64,000 nt of DNA from Nymphaea colorata (taxonomy: Eukaryota > Streptophyta > Magnoliopsida > Nymphaeales > Nymphaeaceae). Numbering within the stretch: position 1 is the stretch's first letter; each line of letters begins with the position of its first letter. A model generated the notes under the pieces. That model made no database searches. It was given only the letters and a program-made list of their open reading frames with translations, and was not told the DNA's origin. The position numbers were made by a program, and so were the translations under genes. Below are positions 3,514 to 40,382 of the stretch, piece after piece. The stretch is from assembly GCF_008831285.2 (NCBI RefSeq), contig NC_045143.1, positions 16,840,464 through 16,904,463 of the forward strand, in the 5' to 3' direction.

Positions 3514-4861
3514 ATCCTGACCTAAATTTTTGGTTCTGCTACTGCTATGGAATCTGGCTAAGCGATTTAGTTTAGACCTACTTTACCTAACCTATGCTTT
3601 GTTGGATGCGTTTGACACAATCTATTTAGTATTTTAGTGGATACAACAGTTTCAACATGATGGCCCTTTTAAGTATGAGGTCATGGCGCACCAACACCAG
3701 CAACTTCGTTTGTAAATTCTATACGCTTTGAAAACAATCGTCTACGACGCCTTAAATCCATCAGCTTAAGCTTGATTCGTTTCATTGAACAATGTTTTCA
3801 TGTCGAATCTTATTAATCATGAAGCTATATTTTTTCTTTCTTTGGCGCCGTCAATGCGGCAAACATATTCTGTTGCTTTCGATTTCATTCGCTGTGTTTC
3901 TCCTGCTAAACTCTTTCCTGTTCTTTTTGCAGAATCATTAAGATCTGTGCTTAAGTGAATGATCGACCGCTTCCATTCCACAGCAATCACGCATTTGAAG
4001 TGGTCTGATATTAGAAAATGAAAAAATTAACAGCCAGATTAAACAGCTTATGTTCTTAGCAGCAAAAACCTCCATCTCTGAGATTGTTCTGGTCTACTCT
4101 AAAACCCGTCTTACAGATTTCTTCTCACTTTTCTGATTCGGGTTTACATCAAAAGTCAATACGATCTCTAAGCGTTACTCGAGACAATAGATATTGTTCC
4201 AGATATTTGGATCTGATCAGTTCCAGACCCAAATCTGATTCCCCTTTCTTGCTGTAAGTGACGTGCTTAATCTTCAGTGGTTGGCGCTCGCTTGGAGTTT
4301 TCCTTCTTTAAAGATTCCTCGTCATTAAAAAAATAAAATTATCCACCCCGTTCGTCTGCTTAAAAGCAATTTAAAAGGAAGCTGTCTAAATATTTTGACA
4401 ATTACGGGTAACCACCTAGTGAGTCATGATTAAGGCTCGGTTCAAACTTGACGAATTAGTCAAATGAAGTGAATAAATTGCCCTCTATGTTGATTTTTTT
4501 TTTTTTTTTTTTTTATAAAAAACACCCGAATGAAAAGTCCAACTTTGCAAGTTGTTCGATTTAAAAAGCCAAAGAAATAAATCCCTCTGCTAGTTGGAAA
4601 TTAAAAAAAACATGCAGATAAACTCCGATGGCGAATTTAGTGGCTTAATAATTGCAATTAGATTTGTGCCACATTAAATGCTATTCCATGTAAGGTAGAA
4701 TGTAGGTTTGCACTATTTATAATGCGGTCCTCATGACTGCTGGATTAGCAATTTTTAATTATTTTAAAAGATCTGATGAAATCTTTATCCCTTCGTTATA
4801 AATTATAAAAAGTAAAAAAAAGTCATAACCAGCCATCCCACATTAGGTGGATAAAATCCAT

Positions 4862-5101
4862 CATTAGTTGAAAGTCTGATATTATTTTCCTTTAAAAAAA
4901 TTGTGATGCACTATAGTTTCATGGACGTCGAACTTCTAGAAGCACCTTAATTAAACGTACAAAATTTTATTTTGAAGGATGCACACACACATTAGCTGAA
5001 AGTCTGATACTATTTTCCTAATATGATGCACTATAATTTCATGGACGTCGAACTTCTAGAAGCACCTTAACTTAAACATACAAAATTTTATTTTGAAGGA
5101 T

Positions 5102-8547: not shown

Positions 8548-9357
8548 CTAAATCCTCAACAATGGATTGGGTTCGACCAAGCAAGTCAGAGTAAAGTAGA
8601 AGGGATGGGGCAGTCTCCCTTGAGCACAAGGCCAATGTGCCAGTGCTGCATTTTCTGGGTTTTTTCTTCTTTGCAGTGGCTTCATTGTCTCATCGGATAT
8701 TTTCTGCTCAAGGAGCGATTCTGGCGATCCAATTGCCAATTCTTGCCATGGAACATCACAGTTCAGATCATTTATGGACTTTAAATCGCCTGCAGAACTA
8801 AGGTTAAATTCACCGGCGATCTTTAAATGTGGATCACAGAGTGGTGGCTCCCGATAGGAACAATGCCGGCAGTTCAAAGCCTGTTTGCTAGCGCCATTGC
8901 AGCAGAAGGTGGTTGAACTAGAAACTGCAGATGTTGGAGCACCACGAATGTGACGGGTAGGATCAGTTTCAGGAGAACTATGGTCAGGCCTAGAGTCAGG
9001 GTTTAGGATCACCATGGGAGAAACTCCAGGTGGGTGTTGATGGGCATCTGGAAATCCACCTGAGTGTTGATTTATTTCACTCTGAGAGTCGGGTGACTGC
9101 CTTAATCTGGCCCTATCTCTTCTATGAACATTCATGTGACCACCAAGGGCCTGGGCTGACTTAAACTCTTTCCTACAAAAGCTGCAAGAGTAGTACCTAG
9201 GAGGCCATATGCACTCGCACAGTAACTCAAATGAGTCTTCTGCAAAGGACTGTTCCTGCCATGGATCACCTTCAGAGGCAGATTGTTTGTTCGAAGCACT
9301 GAAATTTCTCTTCTTCCACATCCAAGCACTTGTCTCTATTGCCATCATGAAAATCAT
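8548..9357 (-). CDS. SUPERMAN-like C2H2 zinc-finger transcription factor
   Basis: Single-exon frame of 269 residues. One plant-type C2H2 finger lies at about residues 55-76: two Cys in YSCSFC, the diagnostic QALGGH, then [13 protein letters not shown]. The lead-in [11 protein letters not shown] and the basic tail after the finger are typical of the SUPERMAN/RABBIT EARS group, which has one finger, no coding intron, and regulates floral and organ growth genes in the nucleus. The start at 9357 is the first in-frame ATG; a second lies three codons later. The rest is Ser/Pro/His-rich and low in conservation. Oddly, the C-terminal DLELRLG-type EAR repression motif usual in this group is not visible; only a weak DLKSINDLN stretch is present near residue 190. 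The last ~50 residues after a PLQRRK stretch look atypical. Family assignment is firm, exact orthologue is not. Confidence 0.85.
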
Positions 9358-14466: not shown

Positions 14467-15291
14467 CATTGTCACATAAGACGCTAACGGGTATAATACG
14501 GCGAGGAAAAAAACAGGTATAATACGGCGAGGAAAAAAATCTCGGGAATAAAACGGGAAAAAGACGGTAAATTTTTAAAAAATAAATAAAAAAAATCCTA
14601 ACAATTATATAAAAATAAAATAAATGAGAAATTAAAAAAACATTGGAAAATAGCTAGATAAGCAACAAATTTTAGGTACATGTCTCAAACAATTTGCCAA
14701 CTTAAAAATTGAAAATAAAGTTTAAATTGAAAATAAAGTTTAAAGTTAATAAATTCTTCCCCTTCCCCTCGCAAGTAAACTCCAGCAAGAGGCGGGAAAT
14801 GAGAAAATCAAAAACGGAAAAAGGAGAGGATGGCGGGAAGTTAATAAGCCCTTTCTCTCTTAAAAAGACGTTTTCGCCATTAAAAGGAGCATCCAAGTTT
14901 AAAAAAACCAATTCGTTTACAAATATTACATGCGCGCCATCCTTTAAAAAGACATTTTTGCTATTAAAAGGAGCGTCCAAGTTAAAAAAAACCAATTCGT
15001 TTACAAATATTACACGCATGCCATCCTTTAAAAAGACGTTTTTGCCATTAAAAGGAGCATCCAAGTTACAAAAAACCAATTCTTTTACAAATATTACACG
15101 CGTGCCATTTCTTTTAAAAACATATGTCTTAAAAAACGTGGAAGACGGGTATAAAACGCGTTTTATACGCGTCTTTTATTTTTAAACGTTTTTTTGAAAA
15201 AAACGCGTTTTATTCCCGTTTTATACGGTAAAGACGTTTTTAACGTATAATACGCGTTTTTTATAAAATAACGGCGTTTTTTGTGACAATG
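14467..15291. mobile_element. Second hAT-like element nested inside the first
   Basis: The ends are CATTGTCACA at 14467-14476 and TGTGACAATG at 15282-15291, flanked by an exact 8-bp duplication ATATGAAG at 14459-14466 and 15292-15299. Beyond the terminal 10 bp, both sides continue with related AACG/TATAATACG and ACGCGTTTTATAC motifs. The 825-bp element carries a three-copy tandem array but no recognisable transposase. Its terminal sequence differs from that of the outer element, so it belongs to a different family of the same type. Confidence 0.85.
14861..15115 (+). repeat. Three-copy ~81-bp tandem array in the inner element
   Basis: Units starting TTAAAAAGACG and containing AAAGGAGCATCCAAGTT and AAACCAATTCGTTTACAAAT recur about every 81 bp. 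As 81 is divisible by three, the plus frame 14709-15185 stays open with a 27-residue repeat (core TFLPLKGASKLKKTNSFTNI). I infer that the open frame follows from the repeat length and do not call a gene. Confidence 0.85.
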
Positions 15292-15762
15292 ATATGAAGT
15301 ATGAACTATGAACTTATGAAGTATGAATATGAACAACACATTCCAAAATAAGAAATCAAACATTCAAAAATCAAAATAACATACTAATCAGCCAAAGAGT
15401 ATTCGATTACATCACAATTCATAAGTTCAGAACTCAGAAGTCAAAACATATAGACATACGACGAAAATAAAGCTTCTTCACTGGCAAATCTTGATGCAAA
15501 TGGAGAAAATCTCTCCCAGCCATGTCTCTTGCAGTGTTTAGAACCAATAGAAGAGAGAGAGAGGAGAGTAGGTTTAAAAAAAAAGACCAAAAAAGGGGCC
15601 GTCGGGCCCCTTTTTCATTTTAACCCTGTATCGTACGATACGCGTGCAATACGCACGCGTATCGTGTACAAACTATGTATCGTATCGTTTTTGTTGATAC
15701 AGACGATACTTATCGTACGATACGCGTCCGTATCGTACGATACGGATAACATTGGCACCTGG

Positions 15763-18644
15763 ATTCACTATCTGTCCTTCAAGAAATTTGATACACCTTG
15801 TGACTTATGCTACTTGATAAGGTCTTCACTCTAGGCAGTGACATTCTGATCACATAATGCATGGTTGGGTTAGCAATCTATTTGTAACTTTTGTTTAGTG
15901 GGATGATCATCATCTATGTTGTTCAGTGAAAGGTTGTCAGGTTTAGTCTTCCATTTCCAATGGCAGACTGTATAACTCAAGGTCCCTCGTTGTTTAAATT
16001 GGATGTCATGGTTTTCCTTACCATGTTTATTGAAAACTTGCAATAATTGGATTGAATTTGTCTTCTTATTTTTCAGTCCACATCATAACTATTGCTTGCC
16101 TGGACGTTTTGTGCTACAACAAATACAATTGAGGAACAGGGAGCCTTCTACTGAATTGATAAGGGAACAATTAGACTCAATGGCATTACCTTCATAACAA
16201 CATTATCAGCTGAATTTCTTAGTTAATATGCTTGGTTAATACTTTTGCATTTTGTTCTGTTAATTCTCTTTCGTTTGATTTTTCATTTTGTCCCATTGTT
16301 GAATGAGGAAAGTAGAACTCCTCGTTTTGGCCTCTTTCTTAGTTGTGGTGTTCGCTGTTTCTCACCTTACCTATTTATTTATTTATTATTTTATTTTATT
16401 TCTTTTTCACTGCATGTGAATTACACATTAGCCTTCACAAGTGCTCAAAGTATCACAATAGGTCTCTCGGATGAGCCAAACATGTGATTGTCAGAGCATG
16501 TTTGGCATCTAATTCTGTTCTCATTGCTTGATACCGTCGACTGTTTTTCATTTGTTCTCATTAATATTTGATCAATGGAATTCCTTGTCAAAATTATCAT
16601 TTATGGGAGCACGTTTTTGTTCAATGGAAAGCCTTAGTTAGAGCATCAAATGTACTTGGGATCAGATTCAAATTTGATAGATTGGTTATCATATTTTGTT
16701 TAGGTTCAGACATTTGCATGCAAGTCCCTGGCCGTTTGGATCTGAAAAGTGTATGTTTTTTTATCAGTCCTTATCTGATCCAGCATGTTATCTGTCACCT
16801 TTTGTCACTGCCCGTAAGAGAATTGATGAAGTTCATTTTTTACCTAGTCAACCCATTTGGTTTTGCAAGCACCCATCTCTTTAGAGAGAATAGTTTCTAC
16901 TTTCTACCTCGAATGAGATATTTCATTTGATGTCAAGATCATTTCTAAAAAAAGAACTTTTCCATCTTGCTTAAAAACATTTTAAAAGCATTTTAAAAGC
17001 ATTTTTTCACACAATGATATGCCTTCATTTTATTTTTAGTACCTCATCGAGTACTAGGAGAAAATTTCAAATTTTTGTCGTCAATCAATGGAAGAGGAAA
17101 ACTTAAAAAGTCTTGAGTATGAACAATGAGGAAATTCCTATGAAGCTGAGAAAGTCAAGAATAGGAGATGCTATTGACTCTACTAATTAAGCATCTGCAA
17201 AGGATTTAACAAGAAAATACTCTAAGAGAGAAGTCACAATGCTTTGTAAAATCTTGACAGGTAGCAAAATGAGAGTTGAGAGATGGGCTCGAGGCTTCTG
17301 TAGTTGTTCCTCTACGTCGGTAATCAAGAGTACCGGGTAGGCATATAGGTGATTTATGTCTATGCCCCGAAGATTACGACTTATGAACTTTTGGACTGTT
17401 GAAAGCCCGTAAGGTGAAGCAGGTTGGATACGTGATAAAACTACATATAACCACCAAAGTGGTGGAGCTTCGTAGTAGCCTTTGGGGTGGTGAGGTATTC
17501 CCTCAAAGGTGAAGGTCGGCCTGAAAAATGAAATCAAAAGGCAAAAAGCCAAATGCAAAAGAAGAAAAGAAAAAAAAAGCAAGAAAAACAAAAGGAAAAA
17601 AAACAAAAGATATCTGTCAAGGAATGAAAGACATGATGGCTGAACTTGTAGAAATTGAATGCGACAATCTTTTGCAGATGTGCGATTTTGGAGTCAACTC
17701 TACTCTTCTTTTTTATTTCCTAAGATGTTGAAAACCATTCCTTTATGTTTATATTTTGGAAATTGAGGGACATCCCTTCTAAAGATTCAACAACATTGAT
17801 GTGAAATGGATCATGATGTTTGTACAGTACAGCGAGTAAATGAAATGCATATTATTTGCACAACACGAGCACTCAAACTTATGAGTTGATGGATGATTTA
17901 TGAACTATTTCAAACTAAAAGCTCGACATCTCTTGTTATGTTTCTTGGTTTTCTAAGTGTAGGAGAAACTAACCCAATCCCCCTTTCGTCTTATAATATA
18001 TTGCCCCTTTCATTACCAAGCTATTAGTACATTAATTGAATACACAAAACATCTCATATACCCAAGTTGAGTGTGATGCCCCATCATCTCCTTTATCTTA
18101 ATAGAGACATGCCTTTCAGTATAGGAGATTAAACCATAACCATCATTCTATCTTAATTGTCTTATTTGCTTGACTTTCATTTCATTGCCTTCACTTGTGT
18201 TGTGGACCAACTATATGCCTCAGCACCCCGTGGGCCAAATAGGCCTGAAAAGTCAGCCCGTGACAAAACTTGATTATTTTGATCAGTATAATCTGTTCAA
18301 GTTCATGGGTGTGTTGGTTGTGTCACATCTGATGTAGTCTTTGCTGATGGTTTGCTTAATCTCAATGAACCTGGGGCACAGTCCGTTCTAAAGGTACTGG
18401 ACAGAAAGGTCGTGTACTACAAATGTTGACTGCAAATATATTGATCATCTGATTATTTGCACATGGGATACTAGAAGAACTGAGAGTTTATCCTGCTCTT
18501 TTTTGGCTGTTGTTTCCTGGACCTAGGCACTAAGTGATGACCAGATGTTTGTCTATACGTGAAAATGTTGCTGGCATTTCGCTTTTCAACTTTTTTCTGC
18601 TATAGTAGCATCAAGTAGATGGAATTATGACTTCATCCAGTCCA
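15763..18644. other. Intergenic or upstream relic sequence, no gene assigned
   Basis: No exon here can be assigned. A purine-rich, A-heavy tract lies at 17540-17610. A short frame at about 18308-18400, including VTSDVVFADGLLNLNEPGA, looks protein-like but has an in-frame stop shortly before it and matches no family I recognise. It would be a natural place for the N-terminal exons of the neighbouring terpene synthase relic, but I see none of their hallmark motifs, neither RRx8W nor DDxxD. Confidence 0.35.
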
Positions 18645-19519
18645 TTTTCAGCGGCGCATCATCAGTAATTTTCCTTAGTTGTCATTTGTATTATTTAATT
18701 TATTTTGGTATCATGATGACATGAAAATGTGTAGATTGAAACACAAAGGGGCAGGGTCTCGTACTTGATTGCCACCCTTGAGGACATCTTCGATCGCTTT
18801 GTACACAGGTGGGATCTTCAAGCAGCAGAGCAGCTGCCCAGCCACTTAGGGCCTCCTATGTGGCTGTCTACAACACAACCAATCTGATTAGCTATGTTCT
18901 CAGGAGGCATTTCAGCGGCGCATCATCAGTAATTTTCCTTAGTTGTCATTTGTATTATTTTATTTATTTTGGTATCATGATGGCAATGACGGCCATGGCC
19001 ATGCCTCCTGAGAACATAGCTAATCTGATTGGTTGTGTTGTAGACAGCCGCATAGAAGGCCCTAAGTGGCTGCGGCAGCTGCTCTGCTGCTTGAAGATCC
19101 CACCTGTGTACAAAGCGGTCGAGGATGTCCTCAAGGGTTGCCATCAATTACGAAACCCTGCCCCTTTGCGTTTCAATCTGCACATTTTCATGTCATCATG
19201 ATACCAAAATAAATAAAATAATACAAATGACAACTAAGGAAAATTACGGATGATGCTGAAATGCCTCCTGAGAACATAGCTAATTTGGTTGTGTTGTAGA
19301 CAGCTGCATAGAAGGCCCTAAGTGGCTGCGGCAGCTGCTCTTGTTCAAAGCGTCAAGTACGAGACCCTGCCCCTTTGTAATCTGCACATTTTCATGTCGT
19401 CATGATACCAAAATAAATAAAATAATACAAATGACTACTAAAGAAAATTATTGATCTGATTGGTTGTGTTGTAGACAGCTGCATAGAAGGCCCTCTTCTC
19501 TGCTGCTTGAAGATCCCAG
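18645..19519. repeat. Inverted and direct copies of one terpene synthase exon
   Basis: A forward unit (intron tail plus exon) at 18645-18910 is followed by a second copy of the tail at 18911-18981. Inverted copies follow at 19001-19260 and 19261-19450 (partial), with a third exon-only fragment at 19451-19519. The tail contains TTTTGGTATCATGATG and the exon contains GCTATGTTCTCAGGAGGCAT. The tip between forward and inverted copies holds the perfect palindrome GGCCATGGCC at 18991-19000. The longest foldback is about 250 bp per arm with few mismatches. Confidence 0.85.
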
Positions 19520-19903
19520 TACATGACCCTAATCTGTGTTGTCAAGAGGCATGGCGGTGATATCACTTCACACATGAGGAGAGCGGTACGGTACGACACT
19601 TTCTCTATCTAATCTGTCTTTTACTGTTCACATCATCTCATTAATATATTAGCTTCACTTTCGAATTGACTTGCTCTCTTCTACTCTTGGGCAGTGGCGA
19701 GTGTGTGGAGAGCTTACCTGGTTGGGACAAGATGGTGCCGTGAACAGACACTGAGCAACAACCGAGCAGCCATGACCGGACCTATTCTCCTGCCTGCCTA
19801 CTTCCTCTCACAAAACATTGAGGAACAAGCAATCCAGCAGCTGCAGTCTGAGTCCCACATCATCAACTTGTCATCGATGATAGATCGTCTCTCGGCTGAT
19901 CTG
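18645..19903 (+). pseudogene. Terpene synthase pseudogene, middle exons
   Basis: Translated pieces match the C-terminal catalytic fold of plant terpene synthases. An exon at about 18774-18910 reads TLEDIFDRFVHRWDLQ then AAEQLP, aligning with the family segment after the DDxxD motif. It has a one-base deletion after QLP relative to the inverted copy at 19001-19140. A short piece at 19538-19585 ends in SHMRRA. An exon at 19695-19903 reads VWRAYLVGTRW, GPILLPAYFLS and SSMIDRLSADL, all at family positions. The donor at 19586 does not join the acceptor at 19694 in frame. Exon order is disturbed by inverted copies. Plant terpene synthases make mono-, sesqui- or diterpenes from prenyl diphosphates; this copy cannot. 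The last exon is at 24358-24621. Confidence 0.75.
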
Positions 19904-22262: not shown

Positions 22263-22955
22263 ACCCAACTCCCTCTACGCCATCAACTTCGCTACCCATA
22301 GACAAAATATCTAGGGAACTTTATAAAGGAAAACTAGGACTACCCAATTCTCAAGCAGGCTAGGCTGGGTATTTGGACTAAGCAAACGAATAGATAGCTA
22401 GAAAATTACAAGCACAAAAGGTAGAAACCATTGGGGAACATGAAAATTGACTTGATCCGATAAAAAATTGGTCGTATATGATACAACATACAAAAAGAAA
22501 ATGAAAACGCATGTTTCCTGCTCAATTTCTTGTGCTCCTCCTATGTCTACTCAACGGGTTGAAAAGCAAATTATCGCAAACAGATGTTTCACATCTTCTT
22601 GAAAGTATTGCAGCATAATGCCACTACTCATAACTACCACTTCTCTGTTTTTTTTTTTCTTTACATCAGTCCCTTCAGTTTGAGATGATGCTTAATTAGA
22701 GAAAAATAATCCGAACTGGCGGCTGCTGGTGTATTCGGACTGCATGTGGCTAGCTATGACAAAACAGTTGAGAAAACGAGAGATCAAGAGTGAGTTACTC
22801 ATGGAGAGAAACGAGAGAAGGAGAGAGGGAGACCTCACCGATCATCGGTGCTATAGGTGGTCATCGCTGGTCCAGGTTGCCGGTGGCTGTTGAGTGAACA
22901 GAAGGTGAGTAGGAGACAGGGCAACACTACTAGTCGTACTGGCTCCACCCCTCAG
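22263..22955 (+). repeat. Left arm of a ~700-bp inverted repeat
   Basis: Sequence from CCCAACTCCCT to CTCCACCCCTC is repeated in inverse orientation at 25485-26200, with scattered substitutions and small indels. Shared landmarks include GAATAGATAGCTAGAAAAT, ATGAAAATTGACTTGATC and CTCAATTTCTTGTGC. No protein domain is recognisable in either arm. Confidence 0.88.
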
Positions 22956-23234
22956 ATCTTGCTGACCTTATAACTGATTTACACCGAGTCGGTGGAGATC
23001 ATACATATTGTTCATGTGTATCGGAAATGGAAACACCAACTCATATTGTTCATATGCCTTGGACTTGCACAAATTATACGTGAATTATTTTTCTTTTATG
23101 CCTATATATTAAAAAATATACCTCCAGCCAGACATCCAGTGTCGGAAACTATACAGTGGAAATTAATTCTACAAAATGGCACTTTTTTTAAAAGTAAATG
23201 ATTCTTTTGTTTTACATAAATAAGTTCTTTCTTC

Positions 23235-23404
23235 TTTAATTTGTCACTTTATTTATAAAAAAATTGAATTGTGCTCTTTAAGTAGTGTTTGATAAAAAAA
23301 AATTGTTAGACTAAAGAACTTATTAAGAATAAAGTGTTTTTTTTTATCAAACACTACTTAAAGAGCACAATTCAATTTTTTTATAAATAAAGTGACAAAT
23401 TAAA
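23235..23404. repeat. Perfect 68-bp-arm hairpin
   Basis: Arms at 23235-23302 and 23337-23404 are exact reverse complements by eye, with a 34-nt loop. The arms contain GAATTGTGCTCTTTAAGTAG. In addition, AATAAGTTCTTT just left of the arm is inverted in the loop as AAAGAACTTATT. The sequence is AT-rich and non-coding. It could be a short foldback transposon remnant or a small-RNA precursor; the perfection implies that it is young or under gene conversion. Confidence 0.92.

Positions 23405-24961: not shown

Positions 24962-25017
<56 letters not shown>
24962..25017. repeat. (AT)n microsatellite
   Basis: About 28 uninterrupted AT units, the longest AT tract of the window. Confidence 0.97.
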
Positions 25018-25020
<3 letters not shown>

Positions 25021-25484
25021 ACCCATCAATATCTTTCCTCAAATTTTATTAATCTTCATGTTTTACACTGTGGAAATCAACACAAAAATGAGTTTTATAA
25101 GCTTAAAAGGATGATATTGATTACTAAGATCTTATTTCAGCATTGTAATGCCATTTTAGATAAAGTTCTATTGTTTTGAGGACCAAGATTTACGTCCACA
25201 TTTTACACGAAAATGATATAGAATGTTAAAACCTGGTGTGACAAATTCATCACACTTTTTCTAATCAATCTTTTGTAAGAGATCTTCTACATCCCAAAAG
25301 CAATAAATTCTAGAAATCATAATAAATAACAATTTAACATTAATTTCAAACTTAAGCACATTTGAAAGTGATTATGCGAGCCAATGCATATGAACGACAT
25401 GAGACGGTGTTTTCATTTTCGATACACATGAAAGATACATATGAGTTCACCTACTCGGTGAAAATCGGTTGAAGTATGTAGGAC

Positions 25485-26200
25485 CCGAGGGGTGGAGCTG
25501 GTCCGACGAATAGCATTTCCAGGGAACTTCACCCTCAAAGCTCTGTCTCATCGATTTCCTCTGTTCACTCAATAGCTGTTGGCAACCTGGATGACCGATG
25601 GCCACCACAGCGCCCGTGACAGATGACATCTCTCTCTCGCCTTCTCTGGTTTCTCTTCATGACTCACTCCCTCACGATCTCGCGTTCCCTCAACTATTTT
25701 CTCCTTGCCCGCCACCTGCAGCCCAAATGCACCAATGGCCTTCTATTTCGACTATTTTTCCCTAATTAAGCATGACCTTAAACGGAAGAGACTCATGTAA
25801 AAAGAAAACAGAGAAACGGTAGTTATGAGTAGTTGCATTCTACCGCTATACTTTCGAAAACATGTGAAACATCTCTTTGCCATAATTTGCTTTTCACCCC
25901 ATTGAATAGACATGAGAAGGGCACAAGAAATTGAGCAGAAAACATGTGTTTTCATTTTCCTTCTTGTTTTGTAATGTGTACAACCAATTTTTATCAGATC
26001 AAGTCAATTTTCATGTTCACCTATGGTTTTTGCCTTTTGGGCTTGAGATTTTCTAGCTATCTATTCTTTTGCTTTGTCCAGATGTCCACCCTAGCCTGTT
26101 TTCTAGTTAAATAAGAATTGGATAGTTCTTGTTTTCCTTATCCAATTCCCTAGATATTTGATCTATGGGTAGTAAAGTTGATAGAGTGGAGGGAGTTGGG
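25485..26200 (-). repeat. Right arm of the ~700-bp inverted repeat
   Basis: Inverse of 22263-22955, starting with GAGGGGTGGAG and ending with AGGGAGTTGGG. The two arms enclose about 2.5 kb holding the last terpene synthase exon, the perfect hairpin and the AT tract. No target duplication was found outside the arms. Confidence 0.88.
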
Positions 26201-26523
26201 TAGGTTTTGTTTTGCAAATCCTCACTGGATTTGTGTCATTCTTTTTTCGTTCTGCCAACAGTTTTCAGAATGTTCGAACTAGGTTGTGCACATATTTTTT
26301 GTAGTTGAACCATGAAGTCATAAATTAGTATTTAAGTCTTTGTTTGTTTTCATTGGTGCTTTTTCTTTGTTGGAGATATCTTCATTAGTTTTATCCTTAT
26401 TGAGCAAGCAACTTGTCCAAATAGTTTTCATTTTCTATGGCATATACATAGAAATGTTGAGATCTTTTAATGTTAGCAAACGAGGTTGTAATATTTGTAA
26501 GCAGATCTACTCCTATTTGTTAC

Positions 26524-39306: not shown

Positions 39307-40382
39307 TCAGTATGGTGGTGGCGGACGTGAAGGAGCCCAACCGTAGACTTCATGCGGCATCTGCCCATTAGACAGCAAGTTGGGTGGCAGGTTATAGATA
39401 GGCAACGACGAAGGCTCCGCCAAATCGCGTTGCTGCTGCTGCCCGCCGCTCCCCCCACCGCCGCCGCCGCTGCTCTGCGAAGTGCTCACACCGCCAGGAG
39501 ACGACTGCTGCTGCTGCTGCTGCGCCGCCTGGTTCTCCGCCTCTTCCTCTACCGGGAGCCTCTCGTACGCGGCGTTGGTGAAGGTGGCCGCGATGACGAT
39601 GACTGGGCCGGAGGCGACGAGCGGACCCACGACACAGCCGCCGATGACCTGTCCCTGCCCCCCGCCAGGTAGACCGTGAGTCCCGTGGCGCCTGGCGGAG
39701 AAGGCGCCGGAAGGAAGGCGCCTGAGAGGGAGAGGATCTCGAACCGGCCACGAAGCGCCACGACCGCACCGGGTGCGCCCGGCTGCCGAAGCGTGACGTC
39801 GGTGACGACGCCACTGCCGCTTAGCACGCATACGCCGCGCTGCCTGCGGCGCGCGAAGGCGGCAACGCTCTCTGCGACGTCGCTGCCGCTGCTGATCTCG
39901 AGAACGTGGCTCCGGAGGGCGTTGGGGCTCTCTCTCGTGACGACGACGGGGGGCTTCGGCTTGTTCTTGGATCCGGGAGGGCGGCCGCGCGGACGGCGAG
40001 GGCCTGGCTCCACCACCGCCTCTGCCCCCGTCGCGTGGTCTGCCTGCTCGTGCTCGGCAGTAGTCCCCCGCCCTGCGTCGTTCTCCTCCTCGTCGTTGCC
40101 ACCGTTAGTGGCAGTATCTTGATCGAGTTTTGGCGGGCCGAGTCCAGGCCGTCCCGCCGAGTCGACTTCGGAGGTGTGGAGGTGGAGGCCGGAGGAGGCT
40201 ATGGCGTGGTCCGCCCCTCCGAGCCCCACATTCCCCGACCACCACCTGTTCGCCAGCTCTCCCTTCTTCACCGATCCTTCTTTCTCCTTCAAAAACAACT
40301 GCCCGACAAAACCATGGAGAGGAGAAAACCTCTCTCTCTCGCTCTCTAACAAGAAGAAGAAGAAGAAGAAGAAGAACGACAA
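39307..40382 (-). CDS. AHL: AT-hook (AHL, type-A PPC) protein, frameshifted
   Basis: AHL proteins bind AT-rich DNA in the nucleus and act in growth and chromatin control. The AT-hook is [15 protein letters not shown], followed by a PPC domain from about [14 protein letters not shown] through the type-A core [14 protein letters not shown] to [17 protein letters not shown]. The C-terminus with NLPPNLL and [13 protein letters not shown] is typical of clade A, as is the lack of introns. Two anomalies exist. First, the frame breaks inside the PPC domain at a run of six G (minus) at 39658-39663: TVYLAGG is in one frame, QGQVIGG in the next. Second, the expected start [13 protein letters not shown] is preceded by CTG (40256), not ATG. 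The only upstream in-frame ATG is at 40382 and adds a poly-Phe stretch from a TTC microsatellite. The GC-rich coding part contrasts with its flanks. Correcting one base would give about 315 residues from the CTG. Confidence 0.88.

Follow-up and report, generated by a model that had tools for sequence, protein, structure and literature searches.

Anatomy of the inverted terpene synthase array

The 64,000-nucleotide stretch of Nymphaea colorata DNA analyzed here and referred to as the window (contig NC_045143.1, positions 16,840,464 to 16,904,463; G000:C6:16840464-16904463) contains an array of direct and inverted copies of terpene synthase (TPS) sequence at positions 18645-19519. Examination of the window confirmed the structure of the array. 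Unit F (18646-18909, plus strand) joins intron 1 and the beginning of exon 2 to a part of exon 4 and then to exon 5, in which one base is deleted. It is followed on the same strand by F' (18910-18985), a second direct, truncated copy that holds part of intron 1 and is 97% identical to F. The tandem junction from F to F', CTCAGGAGGCAT/TTCAGC, is an exact 18-mer at 18899-18916 on the plus strand. The array turns at a perfect 10-bp palindrome, GGCCATGGCC, at 18991-19000. Beyond this point all copies lie on the minus strand: I1 (19001-19256), with an exon frame that is open to 19147; I2 (19261-19455), with several internal deletions; and I3 (19456-19519), a fragment with part of exon 5 only. An inverted copy of the tandem junction, an exact 18-mer match at 19255-19272 on the minus strand, leads from I2 to I1. 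A preliminary description of this DNA had placed the forward copy, the two inverted copies and the third inverted fragment correctly, and its palindrome, its one-base deletion in the forward copy and its open minus-strand frame are all present. It had missed the second direct partial copy.

The I1 exon (19001-19147) matches Terpene_synth_C (PF03936) with 30.9 bits against a cut-off of 26.3 (E 2.1e-7), and it also matches solved plant terpene synthases, with a best E of 1.2e-4. Exon 6, downstream of the array, scores 18.0 bits with the same model (E 0.0018), under the 26.3 cut-off. The frame of F at 18735-18887 gave no match in a Pfam scan, and two TPS fragments gave none in an NCBIfam scan. 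A 139-residue frame that runs across F, F' and I1 (18782-19201) has no Pfam match and was read as a by-product of the foldback.

When the exon was searched against the genome (407,766,735 bases in 783 contigs; 40 of 134 candidates scored and 125 matches listed), at least 38 places outside the array and a second relic, L009, showed 87-90% identity, a lower bound counted from the match table. Fifteen of these 38 TPS loci, together with L009, were examined closely. Alignment to them revises the view that the repeated unit is one exon with its own upstream intron. In our reading of the sequence, the unit is a chimera that runs from the tail of exon 1 through intron 1 into the first part of exon 2, then takes up a piece of exon 4 and exon 5, and has lost intron 4; the exon numbering is likewise a reading, made from frames and from the alignments to related loci. 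The first part, 18612-18718, aligns with L014:3858-3963 (18612-18757 in other loci). The next aligned segment, a part of exon 4 (L014:5066-5105), lies about 1.1 kb further on, and about 150 bases separate it in turn from exon 5 (L014:5258-5370).

The array sits inside a larger TPS relic at about 18602-19902. In the alignments to TPS loci, the 5' edge of the relic is the tail of exon 1 (18602-18645, plus strand), with the frame WNYDFIQS. Downstream, the end of exon 5, an intron and exon 6 (about 19533-19902, plus strand) continue colinearly with the related loci; this continuation is 81.6-83.6% identical over 387-391 columns in 11 of the 15 TPS loci, and shorter or split in the other four. Because both flanks are colinear with related TPS loci, the array lies within one TPS relic. 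The homology begins at 18602-18612 in 14 of the 15 loci (L012 being the exception) and at 18630 in L009, and the upstream stretch to 18344 shows no match to the TPS gene in L014, L018 and L024. As the homology starts in the tail of exon 1, with none further upstream, the 5' end of the gene is missing. The relic status of the locus put forward in the preliminary description is supported, and so is the existence of many related TPS loci.

The hairpin of about 250 bp that had been proposed is borne out by alignment and by folding. The alignment of F with I1 spans 256 columns and contains 13 substitutions and a single gap; the inverted arms are 95% complementary between 18656-18838 and 19074-19256 and 96% between 18839-18910 and 19001-19072. 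The RNA of the 875-nt array has a predicted folding energy of -541.2 kcal/mol, compared with a mean of -239.0 (standard deviation (S.D.) 9.9) for 20 shuffled sequences (z -30). The stem spans about 250 bp and the foldback about 600 nt. Plant microRNA (miRNA) precursors have far shorter stems and smaller foldbacks, and an Rfam scan of the whole window gave no matches at gathering scores. The two arms of the repeat are close together and could pair into long double-stranded RNA (dsRNA), which is one of the features of a hairpin silencing locus of the GmIRCHS type. It is the longest inverted repeat with a gap below 1.5 kb and an identity of at least 80% in 284 kb of sequence, a non-random sample of 23 sequences made up of the window, 16 TPS-related loci and six arbitrary loci. 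Two other repeats fall outside those limits: in the window, a longer, weaker pair with a spacing of 2.3 kb (843 columns at 76%), and in L009, a foldback (440 columns, 75%).

Order of duplications and divergence of the arms

F, I1 and I2 all carry the fusion of exon 2 to exon 4, lack intron 4 and have the same 3-bp deletion in the exon; they therefore arose after decay of the gene had begun. The fusion is present in L009, where intron 4 is kept, and in a third relic, L030. The junction AGGAGGCAT/TTCAGC lies on the plus strand between F and F' and on the minus strand between I2 and I1. A genome search for the 18-mer CTCAGGAGGCATTTCAGC with up to two mismatches returned 20 places (5 for a control pattern), of which two were exact, both in the array, and the other 18 carried two mismatches. 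Since the junction occurs in exact form only twice, once in each orientation and both times in the array, the tandem duplication preceded the inversion. In the simplest history compatible with the sequence, the tandem duplication would have come first and the resulting piece would then have been copied in inverted orientation; afterwards F' would have lost its exon at the hinge, and I2 and I3 would have undergone small deletions. Under this scheme a TPS copy from a catalytically degenerate family would first have been stripped of its 5' end, of intron 4 and of most of exons 2-4. A segment of about 265 bp would next have given rise to a head-to-tail duplicate, and this tandem piece would have been copied again, inverted, at a nearly palindromic sequence of exon 5; template switching during replication or break repair is the probable mechanism.

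Of 15 differing columns listed between F and I1, two adjoin an indel and were left out as misaligned. Seven of the remaining 13 substitutions are derived in F and five in I1, and one is ambiguous. A G-U pair remains at four of the 13 positions and the pair is broken at nine; no compensatory pairing between F and I1 was seen at any of them. The divergence of the arms therefore points to drift: the changes, few as they are at 13, look like independent drift and not like maintained pairing.

The same divergence speaks against a palindrome produced by sequencing. Missed adapters can yield false palindromes, and either a missed adapter or a misassembly might in principle have created the array. The published N. 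colorata assembly, from which the window presumably originates, is described as built with PacBio RSII (PMC7015852). A read-through palindrome would, however, have near-identical arms, whereas here the arms differ at 13 of 256 columns; the inverted copies also differ from one another in their internal deletions, and another foldback is found in L009. A sequencing artefact was rejected on the divergence of the arms, and we regard an artefact of either kind as very improbable.

Inverted arms around a small loop would also be expected if the array were a foldback or MITE-type (miniature inverted-repeat transposable element) insertion and not a rearranged gene. Both flanks, however, run colinearly into TPS sequence, full-length matches were found only at the array among the matches listed, and the junction 18-mer is exact only there. 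Dispersed copies with the same ends, which would mark such an element, were found neither among the 40 scored candidates of 134 nor in the genome-wide junction search. A transposable foldback element was rejected on the TPS flanks, the distribution of matches and the unique junction, and is extremely improbable as an explanation.

L009 (G000:C6:17185000-17194999) lies 330 kb away on the same contig and is a TPS relic of the same class. Its foldback (positions 4566-4985 of the locus, 75% identity) turns at the exon 1 side, unlike that of the array, and its RNA has a predicted folding energy of -248.3, compared with a shuffled mean of -111.7 (S.D. 5.9, n = 100; z -23). In the 3.2 kb examined of L030, no inverted copy of the TPS part was found. 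Two of the three known fusion relics thus contain a foldback. Because the foldback of L009 has another turning point than the array, such rearrangements recur.

Related TPS loci as possible targets

The DDxxD motif was searched for in 17 loci (the 15 TPS loci, L009 and L030) and was found in none of the 15 that have a readable exon 4. L018 comes nearest with EDIFD, and it also has the most perfect 21-mers in common with the array. Stops within the best match occur in exon 2 in seven of the 17 loci, and in exon 3, exon 6 and exon 7 in five each. Exon 6 of the related loci reads SADL or SSGL at what we take, by eye, to be the place of the NSE/DTE motif. The TPS copies that closely match the array look catalytically dead. 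The degenerate copies L010-L024 are parts of larger duplicated segments; L014 and L020, for instance, are 98.6% identical over 6.8 kb. L014 also contains a weak Rx_N match (26.5 bits, under the cut-off of 27.7) and a copia gag match. A distance of about 23 kb separates two TPS copies on C268.

The one TPS of catalytic type examined, L043 (C11:8896800-8898800, DDVYDVYGTLDEL), carries DDVYD. The longest word common to L043 and the array is 14 nt; the corresponding length is 11-14 nt for the array against six arbitrary 10-kb loci, and 10-12 nt for L043 against 20 shuffled arrays. The best BLAST match between the two covers 24 bases at 92% identity (E 3e-5). By these comparisons, L043 is a distant homologue of the exon in the array, with no identity of the length of a small interfering RNA (siRNA). 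L043 lies in a cluster of TPS exons at C11:8.60-8.94 Mb that are among the best genome scores with the Pfam model. No place in this cluster is among the exon matches listed from the 40 scored candidates of 134. The petal-expressed TPS-b gene of N. colorata is given as NC11G0123420 (PMC7015852), and our guess is that it may lie in this cluster.

The preliminary description had suggested that the relic silences a functional TPS. This part finds no support: the 15 readable related loci lack DDxxD, and L043 shares at most 14 nt with the array. Among the loci examined we identified no functional TPS target, and, as far as sequence can tell, the degenerate copies would be the targets. The interpretation given in that description is, as a whole, partly supported.

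The array as a relic and as a possible source of small RNAs

We consider it likely that the array is a neutral structural relic without function in trans. If it were transcribed, Dicer-like enzymes would cut the hairpin to siRNAs of 21-24 nt, which would act mainly in cis through RNA-directed DNA methylation; the only possible trans targets identified would be other degenerate TPS copies. Several points weigh against neutrality. Long, near-perfect inverted repeats with short loops are good sources of dsRNA when transcribed. The argument from drift rests on 13 substitutions, and siRNA function needs no compensatory changes. All 16 loci examined closely share perfect 21-mers with the array, at least four each (11 in ten loci, 4 in each of L022-L024, 23 in L017, 35 in L018 and 24 in L009). 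Inverted repeats of plant pseudogenes are already described as sources of siRNAs (PMC13051633, PMC2708354), and a review puts at about 486 of 634 the gene-near Arabidopsis inverted repeats with 24-nt siRNAs (PMC12595863).

An expressed hairpin locus, in which siRNAs cut from the 250-bp dsRNA by Dicer-like enzymes would act in trans against related TPS copies in the manner of GmIRCHS, would draw on the length and stability of the stem, on the perfect 21-mers that the array has in common with the 15 related TPS loci (4 to 35 per locus), and on precedents in soybean and rice. GmIRCHS, at the soybean I locus, is described as an inverted repeat of pseudoCHS3 with a captured promoter region (PMC13051633). 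The array resembles it as a closely spaced inverted repeat of a pseudogene from a metabolic family that is able to give dsRNA, and, by the anatomy of known cases, it would work like GmIRCHS if at all. It differs in its stem of about 250 bp, in the absence of the catalytic motif from the close matches examined, and in the loss of the TPS 5' end, whereas GmIRCHS has acquired a promoter region. This missing 5' end, the limit of 14 nt shared with L043 and the drift-like changes in pairing weigh against trans silencing of this kind, which we hold to be unlikely.

In rice, two adjacent inverted pseudogene pairs with hairpin siRNAs are reported, with identities of 83% and 96% over 185 and about 154 nt (Guo et al. 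2009; PMC2708354). The array resembles these pairs in that transcripts of the adjacent inverted pseudogenes could form hairpins. Its arms are longer, its loop is far shorter, and it derives from a tandem piece; the rice pairs, unlike the array, were chosen by their small-RNA coverage. MIRNA genes that arise by inverted duplication likewise contain an inverted piece of the target family, with pseudogenes included among the sources described (PMC3237417). The stem of the array is far longer than those of the miRNA precursors considered above. That inverted repeats of pseudogenes make silencing RNAs is already known from the soybean and rice cases.

The array may instead make mostly 24-nt siRNAs that act only in cis, methylating the array and its surroundings. 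This is a special case of the neutral relic, with which its probability overlaps, and we hold it to be possible, with somewhat less than an even chance. Its neighborhood is rich in repeats, and 24-nt molecules make up 53.4% of the rice antisense pseudogene siRNAs as reported (PMC2708354). The figure of about 486 of 634 is said to refer to repeats that yield 24-nt siRNAs and lie within 3 kb of a gene (PMC12595863), whereas no gene besides the relic lies within 3 kb of the array among the 30 window frames scanned with Pfam. If the array has any activity, cis siRNAs are the likeliest kind, going by the Arabidopsis figure.

The nearest case of an inverted relic that acts on an amplified family is Mu killer of maize, which like the array derives from a single member of such a family by partial inverted duplication with deletions (PMC3440606). 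Mu killer silences an active transposon, whereas the family of the array consists of TPS genes and any effect on them is putative; the model of hairpin read-through for Mu killer is itself disputed in the same source. On this analogy the array and L009, if read, would seed siRNAs that keep the expanded degenerate TPS copies silent. The divergent catalytic TPS, having no 21-nt word in common with the array, would escape. We regard this as a distinctly unlikely proposal. Were it true, it would explain why dozens of dead TPS copies are no burden to the plant.

In the literature on terpene synthases with inverted repeats, siRNA and pseudogenes, consulted mostly as titles and the starts of abstracts, no endogenous TPS inverted repeat was found. 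The single terpene synthase passage of the review with the Arabidopsis figure concerns MITEs near TPS clusters (PMC12595863). PMC12038890 names two sets of small RNAs from water lilies, CRA019696 and CRA019738; the non-coding RNA data of that paper are described for N. minuta. If expressed, the array would be a natural hairpin silencer of a TPS family in a probably early-diverging angiosperm, with a reason in its sequence for reaching degenerate copies and sparing a catalytic one. If silent, the neutral relic would be a well-resolved case of tandem and then inverted duplication building a hairpin from a dying gene; such hairpins are proposed as raw material for new small-RNA genes.

Genome matches reveal a dispersed repeat of about 1.9 kb at 16446-18343, which ends about 260 bases before the relic. 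Matches in one search start at window positions 16444-16446; another search gave 45 non-self rows at 77-92% identity (two 29-base rows aside), 17 of which end at 18342-18343. The flank at 16990-18342 was considered as co-duplicated with L009, a possibility discarded since this stretch is the dispersed repeat. A second dispersed repeat lies at about 14500-15300. Among the 30 window frames scanned with Pfam, out of all those in the window, the nearest other matches lie at 8548-9357, a C2H2 zinc finger, and at 27.1-29.0 kb, where there are copia-type fragments. An inverted pair of about 0.8 kb (22263-23072 and 25372-26201; 76%, 2.3 kb apart) encloses a near-perfect, AT-rich, MITE-like hairpin of 170 bases at 23235-23404, and a perfect 54-base palindrome of A and T only is situated at 24963-25017. 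Further downstream, a minus-strand gene with a PCC domain of the AT-hook type lies at 39307-40382. Its domain is split over two frames, with profile positions 1-90 scoring 56.3 bits and positions 82-116 scoring 20.8 bits, the second under the cut-off; the split points to a frameshift, an intron or an error in the sequence.
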